Below, one piece after another: positions 15,666 to 19,622 of a stretch of 64,000 bases of DNA (positions are counted from its first letter, which is position 1; every line of letters begins with the position of its first letter). The translations under genes and the position numbers were made by a program. The stretch is from Thalassomonas haliotis (GTDB taxonomy: Bacteria; Pseudomonadota; Gammaproteobacteria; Enterobacterales; Alteromonadaceae), in NCBI RefSeq assembly GCF_028657945.1, contig NZ_CP059693.1, forward strand, positions 2,418,001-2,482,000, read 5' to 3'. The notes under the pieces were generated by a model. That model worked only from the letters and a program-made list of their open reading frames with translations. It searched no databases and was not told the origin of the DNA.

Positions 15666-15732
15666 CTACTCCCTTTGAGGGCGGCGACGGGATAATACTA
15701 ATCCGGTTAAGGTTAATATTAATAAAGCACTA
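15666..15732 (-). pseudogene. Severed 3' end of a PEP-CTERM gene (membrane anchor and Arg tail)
   Basis: Read on the minus strand and joined to the codons on the other side of the IS, this segment gives SALLILTLTGLVLSRRRPQRE and a TAG stop at 15666-15668. It is a textbook PEP-CTERM hydrophobic helix plus basic tail. Removing the IS and one TA copy restores one frame with the gene at 16602-17084, ending VPEPGASALLILTLTGLV and so on (about 178 residues in all). Confidence 0.85.
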
Positions 15733-16612
15733 GGGCGTGTTGATCTTTTGAGAAGGAATTTTGAACAGCATGGTGAAACGTTATAATTCATTTCGCCAAA
15801 AACCAATTACAACATAATCACCATGCTAAGAACTATGTTAACAGATGCCATATGGCAGAAGCTATCCCAATTAATGCGACACAGCGGCAGGGTTTACAAT
15901 AAACCTGAGCATAGAATGACATTTGAAGGCATTCTTTATCGGATGAGGACGGGCTTACCCTGGCGTGATTTACCTTCGGACTTTGGTCATTGGAATACGG
16001 TATTTCGTCGCTTTAACTTATGGTCGAAGAAAGGGATTATAGACTTGTTATTCAAGTGTTTATCTAAAAACTCCGATGTGGAGTGGTTGTTTCTTGATGG
16101 GACTATTGTTCGTGCTCATCAACATAGCAGCGGTGCAGCTTCAAAAGATAACCAAGCCATTGGAAAAAGCCGAGGCGGTAATTCTACTAAAATTCACCTT
16201 GCTGTAGATAGTTGTGGATTACCCGTATATTTTGAGTTGTCCGGAGGGCAAATTAATGACGTCAGTCATGCAAATTCCTTGATAACTCATTCGCCACAAT
16301 CTGAATATGTGGTTGCAGATAAAGGCTATGATAGCGAAGCTGTTAGAAAATGCAGCGAAAATAACGGTGCAATCTCAGTCATACCGCGCAGGAAAAATAG
16401 CAAAAAAGGTAATGAAGAGATGGACTGGTGCCTATATAAGTATCGGCATCTCGTTGAAAATGCTTTTGCCAGAATAAAACATTTTCGAGCAATAGCAACA
16501 AGATACGATAAATTAGAGCAGAACTATGCCAGCATGGTTAATCTGGCATTTGCTATGATGTGGTTACCAATGTGGATTGACTAAGTTGTGAACACGAAAG
16601 ATCAACACACCC
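15733..16612 (+). mobile_element. IS5-family insertion sequence (IS427-like), complete
   Basis: 880 bp bounded by inverted repeats GGGCGTGTTGATCTTT (left) and, read inward from the right end, GGGTGTGTTGATCTTT, which differ at one position. A TA dinucleotide flanks both sides (15731-15732 and 16613-16614), the duplication expected for this IS5 subgroup. It holds one intact transposase gene. It lies inside a PEP-CTERM gene on the opposite strand. The intact ends and frame suggest a recent insertion. Confidence 0.9.
15823..16584 (+). CDS. IS5-family DDE transposase
   Basis: 253 residues in one open frame. The N-terminal domain has MTFEGILYRMRTGLPWRDLP and GHWNTVFRRFNLW, typical of IS5-type transposases. 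The catalytic triad lies in FLDGTIVRAHQ (first Asp), VVADKGYDSEAVR (second Asp) and RHLVENAFARIKHFRAIATR (Glu with the K/R box). No frameshift is needed, so the element may still be active. Confidence 0.92.
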   Translation: MLRTMLTDAIWQKLSQLMRHSGRVYNKPEHRMTFEGILYRMRTGLPWRDLPSDFGHWNTVFRRFNLWSKKGIIDLLFKCLSKNSDVEWLFLDGTIVRAHQHSSGAASKDNQAIGKSRGGNSTKIHLAVDSCGLPVYFELSGGQINDVSHANSLITHSPQSEYVVADKGYDSEAVRKCSENNGAISVIPRRKNSKKGNEEMDWCLYKYRHLVENAFARIKHFRAIATRYDKLEQNYASMVNLAFAMMWLPMWID

Positions 16613-17084
16613 TAGCGCCTGGCTCCGGCACTTGTGCCATTACTTGTGCAGAAGCCGTAGCGTTAAGATTGACCCCGGATAACGGTGACGAAGTGCCCGG
16701 CGCATAGAAATTTCCACTTTGCCCGAAAGAGAAGCTTGAACTACCCGGGGTCAGGGCTGTTAAGTTAAAAGCGGCCAGCAGAAAGTCACCGCTGTTTGCT
16801 GAAAAGTCAATAAAGCTGATGGCCAGCCCGGTAGCGGTTGGTGAGCTGATAAAACCAAACGGGTTCAGGTCGGTCACAATCGAAGTCAAATCCAGTGCGA
16901 AAATTGAATCATCGAAAGAAAAATCAATATCAAAATAATCAAATTCAGTGAAGTCGCGGGCGTTTAGGCGTATCTCCAGGCTTTCCCCCTCAAGCAGTTG
17001 CTTGGTGCTTAAATTGATATCGATTAGGCCGGCATGGGCGTTAAATCCCGTTAAAAAGGCGAATAAAATAAAGAGTTTTTTCAT
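16602..17084 (-). pseudogene. PEP-CTERM surface protein gene truncated by an IS
   Basis: The remaining frame is 160 residues: a signal peptide (LFILFAFLTGFNAHA) and a beta-rich region (about 20-148) with a cohesin-like look (LEIRLNARDFTEFDYFDIDF). It then reaches the sorting motif VPEPGA followed by RVC and a stop contributed by the IS end. The true membrane anchor lies beyond the IS at 15666-15730. Without the anchor helix and Arg tail the product should escape exosortase processing and probably be released. The TA duplication and frame joining make the disruption clear. Confidence 0.88.
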
Positions 17085-17252: not shown

Positions 17253-19622
17253 TTAGAGAGCCGGTGCCTGCAGCGCACATCTGTCATGGCTGCACCGGGC
17301 CTGCAGTGCCCGGACGTCGGTGACATCGAACTCCCCGTCCTGGTTAGCATCAAACTGGGCAGGAATTTCCTGTCCCTGCTGTATCGCCACCATAAAACTG
17401 CGGATGTCGAGCATATCGATATCGCCGTCAAGATCCCAGTCGCCGGATAAGTGGATATCCAGGGTGAGGGACTCAGTGGCGATATTGCCCCGGTTATCGG
17501 TCACCATCAGGGATACGGTATAAGTGCCGGTTTCGGTATAGCTATGCTGCGGTGATGCCTGCTCACTCACTTCGCCGTCGCCGAATTGCCAGAAATATTC
17601 GCTGATATCACCGTCGGTATCGTATGAACTTTCACCGTTAAAACGAATGGGACTGTCTGCCAGTTCCGCGCCCTGATGTTTTATTTTGGCATAGGGCAAT
17701 AAATCGGTGGAGCCGGATGTTTGATAATACACCTGCAGGGTATTCTGGCTGTAGCTGCTGGCGGTATCTATCTGCACATAAAAACTGCCGCCGCTGGCAA
17801 ACTCGCAATATTCAACGCCGTATTTTGCCGCCTGGGGTTTGCAGTGGGCATCTTCCCGGTTAATTGCTTCAAGGTTAACAGTGCCGTCTAACCCGGTAGT
17901 TGTTGAAGTAAAAGGAATATTCTGGCTGACATAGAGATCCGGGTTGCCCCTTAATACGTCATTGACCACTATCACGACCTGCTTGGCATCTTCGGGCACA
18001 TTAAAGCGGTAGTTTTTCACCGGGTCTCCCGCTTGGGCCGCCAGTTCATTTTCGTTGTGCAAAAATACCCGGCTGCAGCCGTCACATAAGGTGGTATCGT
18101 CAAGGCTGAATACTCTCAGCTGCGCCGCAGAATAACTGCTGTAGGCATGGATTGCACCATGGTAGTCGGGGGCGTTTACCTGTGTGGTGGTCAGGGCGAT
18201 TTCCGGGTTGCCGCCGGCGTTAAATGAAATGTAGTCCGCATCCCAGTTGCCATTTTCATCCGGGGCAGGGGCGACTCCCTTTGAAAGGTAAAGATCCGGA
18301 TCCTGGCTGTAGCCGTCAAGGTAAAAAGCCAGCGCCTGGGTGCCCTCGGGTACCGCCAGCTCAAAGCGGCTGATGTCGTCTTGTTCGCCGCTCAAGCCTG
18401 TTTGCTGGAAAATAACGGTTTTACCTTGCGGGTCGAATGCCAGGTTTGCTCCTGTGCCATCCCACACCGGTTGTTCGCTGCTGGTATATTGCTCTAGTCC
18501 GGTGGCAATCAAGTTGCGGTTTGACCAGATAGTGCTGCGTGCATTGCCGTGTAAAGCCGCTTTCATCCGGGATACCTGCCCGGCGGTGAACATGGCATAG
18601 TTGTCGGAATAATGCATAAAGTTTTCGGTGTTGGTGGCCTGGCCGATACAGTTGGCTTCATTATTGCGCAAATATGAGTTTTCCATTTGCGGGGTATCGC
18701 AATTGCGATCGCCGCTTAAGCGACAAAAGGCTTCGCCGTCTATTGAGCAGGCATTGCCGCTGAAGGTATGGATCAGGTTGAGCCAGTGGCCAAATTCATG
18801 GGTGAGTACCGAGCGAAAGTTTTCATTGGTATTTATCCCAAGATAATCGCCGTTATATACCACGCGGGCGATACCGGCATCAGACATAGCAACATCCGGG
18901 TACCAGGCGACGCCGGAATTGTTGAGGGTGCCGTTACCGTAGAGATCCTGCATGATATAGAGGTTGAGGTATTTATAGTTGTCCCAGGCATCATCCGCCA
19001 CTTGCCCATTGACCCGGGTGCCGCCATAACCTGTTTGCTCGTGCTCATAACGGACAATGCCGTTACTGGGCTCGCCGTTTGGCGTTTTTGCCGCGAGGAC
19101 AAATGCTATGTTGAGGTTGTCGCGAATGGACTGAAAATGCTCATGGACAGGCCCGTCCTGGGTGTTTAACCCCTGAAAGTCGGCATTGGTCTGATTTAAG
19201 GCATTTATGATTTTTTCATCGGTTAAACAGTAACCTTCGGCATCGTCGCAGTTGTATCTTTGGCCATAAACATGTACGACCACGGGAATATAATAGCGAT
19301 CACTTAGGCCTTCACCACGGGCAATCATATCATTTTCCACTGCCTGGCTAAGGGCTTGTGTGGCGGTGAGCGGGCTTTTTATACGCTCGGCGAGTTTGCT
19401 TGCCTTTAATTCCCGCTCTAAAGTTTCAAGCAGCTCAGGCCAGTTCTGGCCATTGTCATCGGCACCGCAAATATGCTTGCCGGGCTGGTCGTCAGCCTGC
19501 CTGAGGAAATCCGGGCTTGATGATAATGACAAAGCGCTGAAGCTATCTTCTGCCGCTGATACGGATAATGACGGTATTATCAGCATCAGCAGGGATCCCG
19601 ATAGCCATTTTTTGTTTTTCAT
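17253..19622 (-). CDS. Secreted M43-family zinc metalloprotease with PKD and dockerin-like C terminus
   Basis: 789 residues. The signal peptide (LSGSLLMLIIPSLSVSAAE) is followed by a propeptide. The catalytic domain has HEFGHWLNLIH (His275, Glu276, His279, His285) and the Met-turn NFMHYSDN. Two regions resembling PPC domains follow (about 385-500 and 510-640), then a PKD domain (about 645-727, WQFGDGEVSEQ and TGTYTVSLMVTDNRG). Last come two acidic loops, DLDGDIDMLD and DANQDGEFDV, like dockerin type I repeats, and a CSHDRC tail. The layout is that of an exported protein-degrading enzyme. It is probably transcribed alone. The dockerin-like end may bind calcium; no cohesin partner is visible here. 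Confidence 0.9.
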   Translation of the reverse strand: MKNKKWLSGSLLMLIIPSLSVSAAEDSFSALSLSSSPDFLRQADDQPGKHICGADDNGQNWPELLETLERELKASKLAERIKSPLTATQALSQAVENDMIARGEGLSDRYYIPVVVHVYGQRYNCDDAEGYCLTDEKIINALNQTNADFQGLNTQDGPVHEHFQSIRDNLNIAFVLAAKTPNGEPSNGIVRYEHEQTGYGGTRVNGQVADDAWDNYKYLNLYIMQDLYGNGTLNNSGVAWYPDVAMSDAGIARVVYNGDYLGINTNENFRSVLTHEFGHWLNLIHTFSGNACSIDGEAFCRLSGDRNCDTPQMENSYLRNNEANCIGQATNTENFMHYSDNYAMFTAGQVSRMKAALHGNARSTIWSNRNLIATGLEQYTSSEQPVWDGTGANLAFDPQGKTVIFQQTGLSGEQDDISRFELAVPEGTQALAFYLDGYSQDPDLYLSKGVAPAPDENGNWDADYISFNAGGNPEIALTTTQVNAPDYHGAIHAYSSYSAAQLRVFSLDDTTLCDGCSRVFLHNENELAAQAGDPVKNYRFNVPEDAKQVVIVVNDVLRGNPDLYVSQNIPFTSTTTGLDGTVNLEAINREDAHCKPQAAKYGVEYCEFASGGSFYVQIDTASSYSQNTLQVYYQTSGSTDLLPYAKIKHQGAELADSPIRFNGESSYDTDGDISEYFWQFGDGEVSEQASPQHSYTETGTYTVSLMVTDNRGNIATESLTLDIHLSGDWDLDGDIDMLDIRSFMVAIQQGQEIPAQFDANQDGEFDVTDVRALQARCSHDRCALQAPAL

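Follow-up and report, generated by a model that had tools for sequence, protein, structure and literature searches.

An insertion sequence separates a predicted cohesin from its PEP-CTERM sorting tail next to the gene of a peptidase with a dockerin-like module in Thalassomonas haliotis

The window analysed here, a stretch of 64,000 nucleotides from the genome of Thalassomonas haliotis (6.45 Mb, one contig), contains a small gene on the minus strand, running from 17084 to 15666, that is interrupted by an insertion sequence (IS). This raises the question of what kind of protein has been cut, and of what the loss of its C-terminus would mean for the secreted enzyme encoded beside it. The initial annotation had described the locus as a PEP-CTERM gene split by an IS5-family element, with the lost anchor still legible on the far side. 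This description holds: the single transposase open reading frame of the element passes the NF033580 model with 275.9 bits against a cut-off of 110, the dinucleotide TA is duplicated at its borders (15731-15732 and 16613-16614), and an uninterrupted orthologue occupies the syntenic position in all three congeneric genomes examined. The insertion point lies two codons past the PEP motif, and the present product ends in ...VPEPGARVC. Removal in silico of 15733-16612 together with one TA copy restores a full tail, as had been proposed, giving a protein of 178 residues that ends VPEPGASALLILTLTGLVLSRRRPQRE. The features of the locus are collected in Table 1.

Table 1. Features of the interrupted gene, the inserted element and the upstream partner gene (positions in the window).
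Feature	Position	Strand	Basis
IS5-family (IS427-like) element, 880 bp, with TA target duplication	15733..16612	+	own-genome copies and end comparison
Left terminal inverted repeat of the IS	15733..15748	+	
Right terminal inverted repeat of the IS, 15/16 positions identical to the left	16597..16612	-	
IS transposase, 253 aa, DUF4096 and DDE_Tnp_1, NF033580 IS5 family	15823..16584	+	
Truncated present ORF, 160 aa: signal peptide, cohesin domain, PEP motif, then IS-derived RVC	16602..17084	-	
Predicted cohesin domain	16638..17030	-	profile, AlphaFold2 model, fold search
3' remainder of the interrupted cohesin/PEP-CTERM gene, coding for the transmembrane stretch and the basic end, with the stop codon (15666-15668) and the left TA copy (15731-15732)	15666..15732	-	tail make-up as in 3/3 congeners
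Same-strand upstream partner, 789 aa: M43 peptidase, PKD domain, C-terminal dockerin-like module	17253..19622	-	
Dockerin-like module, two complete calcium-loop motifs	17256..17453	-	

The orthologues of the three congeners are 176-177 residues long, against the roughly 178 that had been predicted for an uninterrupted gene, and share 71-79% identity with the present 160-residue product. Their tails resemble the orphaned 21 codons, being 1-2 residues shorter and carrying some substitutions; none of the three lacks the anchor and none ends at VPEPGARVC without an IS, the two outcomes named beforehand as contrary to an interrupted anchor. All three score 20.1-22.0 bits on the PEP-CTERM model TIGR02595 (cut-off 16) and 15.5-20.0 bits on PF07589 (cut-off 20.7). 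The present product matches neither TIGR02595 nor PF07589 and has no PEP-CTERM tail, which supports the loss of the sorting tail; it is a broken member of the PEP-CTERM proteins. Because the tripartite signal is missing, handling by the exosortase, of which the genome encodes one (G000:C1:421474-422211, 165 bits), would be lost as well, and release of the truncated product into the medium is plausible. For the 5' part of the gene, dN/dS against the congeners is 0.10-0.14 and between congeners 0.09-0.13, rough values given a dS of up to 2.0; since the former match the latter, relaxed selection is not seen. In two of the congeners (G002 and G003) an additional gene of about 263 codons, apparently encoding a periplasmic binding protein, lies between the cohesin gene and a flavin oxidoreductase gene (L063 4614-5405, L064 9421-10209); none was seen at this place in the window or in the third congener, G001.

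The insertion looks recent, in agreement with the initial annotation. The 16-nt ends of the element match at 15 of 16 positions with TA on both sides, the reading frame of the orphaned tail is still open, and six of the seven full copies in the genome are identical, the seventh carrying three mismatches; an eighth copy is 85% alike, and the closest full-length copy among the three congeners, in G001, is 89% alike. The assignment to the IS427 group is inferred from size and TA repeat. The IS427 rows seen of PMC3281130 give 832-865 bp, inverted repeats of 13-21 bp and mostly 2-bp target repeats, from which the 880 bp, 16-bp repeats and TA of our element do not differ in any notable way. All seven full copies are flanked by TA repeats, within CTAG (five) or TTAG (two), and these targets are all that the seven sites have in common; the window's site is the only one recognised as a PEP-CTERM gene, and a preference of the IS for such genes is unsupported. 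Another copy (L001, G000:C1:4667076-4670955) lies within a reading frame some 700 codons long.

The initial annotation was right to call the interrupted gene a PEP-CTERM gene, but left it generic and missed that it encodes a predicted cohesin paired with a dockerin-bearing peptidase. On its own, the window protein has no hit in Pfam, PF00963 (Cohesin) included. This model exceeds its cut-off in none of the four genomes of the genus (a single match of 17.9 bits occurs in G003) and does so in the relatives L015 and L066, while at E<=0.05 it is found in 22 of 37 aligned members. An AlphaFold2 model computed from the truncated protein and 36 relatives reached a pLDDT of 90.7 and a pTM of 0.80. When this model was compared with the PDB using Foldseek, 49 of the 50 matches listed were cohesins or scaffoldins by title, the remaining one (9ifr) being an adhesin domain, and the best matches were cohesin entries (E 1.1e-7, TM 0.5-0.7). 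A sequence profile of the protein and four relatives, searched against solved structures, gave eight matches up to an E-value of 1, all of them to cellulosomal scaffoldin or cohesin chains, with weak scores (best 0.0033). A cohesin fold is thus predicted for the 160-residue product, the mature form of which would be about 142 residues long. The genome of the window contains two cohesin matches in all; a multi-cohesin scaffoldin with a carbohydrate-binding module was not found, the cohesin proteins of the genus being single cohesins of 176-196 residues.

The dockerin-like module of the upstream partner is a borderline match to PF00404, with 18.5 bits by hmmscan (below the cut-off of 22.9), 22.4 bits in the genome search and 23.2 bits together with its neighbours in frame. 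Both calcium loops are complete in the window, as they are, by our own pattern, in 44 of 46 pairs, and a model of dockerin and cohesin fused in one chain places helices after both loops. A profile of the window's tail and eight like it finds as its top three PDB matches short chains of cellulosome entries (E 1.7e-9 to 1.1e-8), of which 2ccl and 1ohz have titles that name cohesin-dockerin complexes. Most of the further matches listed are calmodulins and other EF-hand proteins, so that the calcium loops by themselves are no proof of a dockerin. In the genus, PF00404 has ten matches in four genomes, two per genome at 22 bits or more and one weaker match each in G002 and G003, and a cohesin match lies next to every one of the eight stronger loci. 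Cohesin tails were inspected at six of these eight (one each in G001 and G002, two each in G003 and the window's genome): five end in a PEP-CTERM tail, and that of the window is lost. The second pair in the window's own genome is intact (L081 7767-12347, within G000:C1:814000-832000) and consists of a 1308-residue protein and a 194-residue cohesin with a tail; the homologue of the larger partner in G003 (L069) contains endonuclease I, lamin-tail, EEP nuclease and dockerin domains.

Taken together, these observations make it likely that the two genes form a split anchor, in which a dockerin-tagged enzyme is held by an exosortase-sorted cohesin, and that the window contains a version with a tail-less receptor. 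We infer binding, surface display and release from gene structure and order, the association with exosortase described below, and predicted folds. The secreted M43 peptidase would carry a C-terminal dockerin, and the gene following it would supply a small cohesin with a PEP-CTERM tail, through which in related bacteria the exosortase would sort the cohesin to the surface or matrix; once sorted, the cohesin would hold the enzyme through cohesin-dockerin binding. In the window's genome the IS would spare the cohesin and take away the membrane helix and basic end, leaving a protein that should still be exported but would neither be retained nor passed to the exosortase, and the complex of peptidase and cohesin would probably be soluble. 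With the sorting tail removed and the receptor kept, peptidase and cohesin are therefore probably unanchored. It is also possible, though we would put it below an even chance, that the truncated cohesin does not fold properly or is broken down; the allele would then be null and the peptidase soluble without any receptor. Degradation is common among truncated exported proteins; here, however, the entire cohesin domain is retained and is predicted with high confidence to fold without the tail.

In order to see how widely such pairs occur, we searched 395 genomes of the window's GTDB family with two profiles of nine rows each, one for the cohesin domain (A2) and one for the dockerin tail (A3). 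A cohesin match (E<=0.01) is present in 89 genomes and a dockerin match (E<=0.001) in 190. For at least 62 of the 122 cohesin matches, the list of dockerin matches includes one that lies on the same strand and less than 2 kb upstream, and this proportion follows the rank of the cohesin: all of the 30 best, at least 24 of the next 30 (hence at least 54 of the best 60), at least 6 of the following 30 and at least 2 of the last 32. Among the matches listed (122 for cohesin, 150 for dockerin), no dockerin lies on the opposite strand within 3 kb of a cohesin. Seven of the 30 best cohesin loci belong to the profile; for the matches outside it, at least 53 of 113 have an adjacent dockerin. The gap between the two matches is below 300 nt in 53 of the 62 adjacent cases and about 800 nt in nine, the larger gap being due to a dockerin placed inside the partner, as in the two that were scanned (L159 and L173), where PKD and PPC domains follow it. 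The other 60 cohesin matches, mostly weak, have no dockerin beside them among the matches listed; those ranked 61-122 are possibly cohesin-fold matrix proteins.

Seen from the dockerin side, 62 of the 150 listed matches have a cohesin match downstream and 88 do not. A cohesin lies beside 21 of 30 dockerin loci, and by their coordinates seven of the other nine are situated on the same strand as a cohesin-dockerin pair and 3.4-4.8 kb downstream of it. A dockerin gene, a cohesin gene and a second dockerin gene follow one another in this order on one strand at G241:C73:46403-52019, G156:C1:1231195-1236809, G278:C1:1103506-1109121, G072:C105:22260-27873 and G176:C31:28358-33966; in such clusters one cohesin may serve two enzymes. 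Dockerin-tailed genes at L119 (G226) and L134 (G085) occur in genomes with no A2 cohesin match, and a receptor may there be too divergent or absent. At L139 (G296:C1:937532-937708) the reverse kind of damage is seen, an in-frame TAA that breaks the dockerin stretch next to an uninterrupted cohesin.

Further searches extend this census. A separate scan of named genomes gave five loci, all five with a dockerin beside the cohesin; the genomes of at least three are already part of the count above. At the level of the class, 11 of 369 genomes match, two of which belong to the window's family; the ten loci from other families (L149-L158) include three with a dockerin within about 1.5 kb (upstream in L151 and L155, downstream in L149) and seven with no dockerin match within that distance. 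The sequences of L151 and L155, where the dockerin gene precedes a cohesin-like gene, are more distant and come from two other gammaproteobacterial families. At the level of the phylum, 6 of 378 genomes match, all in the window's own family. Across 46 pairs, from which loci lacking either match or with duplicate cohesins had been dropped, distances between dockerins correlate with those between cohesins (Mantel r 0.53, reached by 0 of 2000 permutations), which is weak evidence, as shared descent alone could give it.

What the partners have in common was assessed in 22 distinct proteins, a chosen rather than random sample (20 fetched pairs and three from the named scan, L146 being a repeat of L162). 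Ten are DNase-like (an EEP domain, an endonuclease I domain or both, in L174 with a score below the Pfam cut-off), six are porphyranase-like, two are M43 peptidases and four are other proteins. PF00404 is found at E<=0.01 in 14 of the 22, and the eight without it match the tail profile, as all 22 do. A docking system would be expected to show just this, unrelated enzymes that have a dockerin in common and a cohesin gene after them. On inspection, 29 of 30 cohesin loci have a hydrophobic stretch and basic residues at the end, the exception being that of the window; several tails carry SEP, SAP or IAP instead of PEP, and among 37 members TIGR02595 recognises 21 (E<=0.01) and PF07589 26 (E<=0.05). 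Exosortase (PF09721) is encoded in 261 of the 395 family genomes, in 83 of 89 with a cohesin match compared with 178 of 306 others (Fisher p 2.5e-11) and in 52 of 53 with a listed adjacent pair compared with 209 of 342 others (Fisher p 1.6e-9), both p-values ignoring the relatedness of the genomes. One genome with a pair, G406 (93% complete), has no exosortase match.

These data bear on a second reading, according to which cohesin and dockerin do not bind at all, the cohesin being a matrix protein that binds sugars or other ligands, the dockerin a calcium-stabilised segment, and their adjacency a matter of co-transcription. It would account for the 60 of 122 cohesin matches without a listed dockerin beside them and for the resemblance of the calcium loops to EF hands, and the single-chain fusion of dockerin and cohesin gives no confident arrangement or interface (pTM 0.58, linker below 50 pLDDT). 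We nevertheless consider it unlikely: dockerins are the known partners of cohesins, the gene order is kept with enzymes as different as DNases, porphyranase-like enzymes and peptidases, and all 62 cases counted have the dockerin gene on the same strand as the cohesin and upstream of it; L149 from the class search has it downstream.

Less probable still is that the IS simply struck one of many inconsequential PEP-CTERM genes next to an unrelated neighbour. The genome does contain 44 PEP-CTERM matches at E<=0.01, and six other places carry full copies of the IS, but the pair is retained in all three congeners with a dN/dS of about 0.1 for the cohesin and is present in other genera too. A reversible switch, in which clean excision would restore anchoring in part of the population, was rejected as highly improbable, for although the IS ends are intact, the TA repeat is present, the tail is open and the part of a review seen mentions precise excision of IS5 in E. 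coli (PMC8944449), the element is dispersed in the genome and not specific to this locus, and beyond its intact ends nothing at the site points to the reversal that the initial annotation had envisaged.

We return to the split anchor, which in the Colwellia/Thalassomonas/Alteromonas group would quite likely be a general device for DNases, porphyranase-like enzymes and M43 peptidases. The genome of the window would then represent a natural mutant in which one pair has lost its anchor while the other is intact. The arrangement resembles the type I and type II pairs of cellulosomes in its predicted cohesin fold, in the two calcium loops with helices of a dockerin on a secreted enzyme, and in a receptor that bears the surface anchor. 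It differs in having one cohesin per small protein, with no multi-cohesin scaffoldin seen, and in its Gram-negative marine hosts, its DNase-, peptidase- and porphyranase-like partners and its PEP-CTERM anchor. With the PEP-CTERM/exosortase system, as given in the portion seen of its description (Haft 2006, PMC1569441), it shares the signal peptide, the tail of PEP motif, transmembrane stretch and basic residues, and an exosortase in the genome; here, however, the sorted protein would be the receptor for another secreted protein, and the window's allele is tail-less. The GlyGly-CTERM/rhombosortase nucleases, according to the passages available of PMC3237569, likewise tie extracellular nuclease or protease cargo to a C-terminal sorting tail, but their enzymes carry the tail themselves, and here a separate cohesin carries it. 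Cohesins and dockerins have also been found outside cellulosomes (Peer 2009, cited in PMC5244752), and the part of PMC5244752 at hand states that their function there is not known, whereas the paired operon described here suggests one.

A full-text literature search, in which subscription papers were mostly outside and a prior description is therefore possible, never returned dockerin together with PEP-CTERM, nor, within the same limits, any paper joining cohesin, dockerin and an extracellular nuclease; the portion seen of an archaeal review names cohesin/dockerin and exosortase and draws no link between them. While the cut by the IS is in itself ordinary, the gene pair of receptor and enzyme may be an undescribed way of keeping secreted enzymes at hand. 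Most of the numerous PEP-CTERM proteins have no known function; if the split anchor is true, the exosortase system would gain a concrete cargo, and noncellulosomal cohesin-dockerin pairs would gain a job, namely the retention of DNases, polysaccharidases and peptidases on the surface or within the matrix. Many compact candidate pairs of cohesin and dockerin emerge from the census, and the window provides a natural tail-less allele for comparison with the intact congeners.
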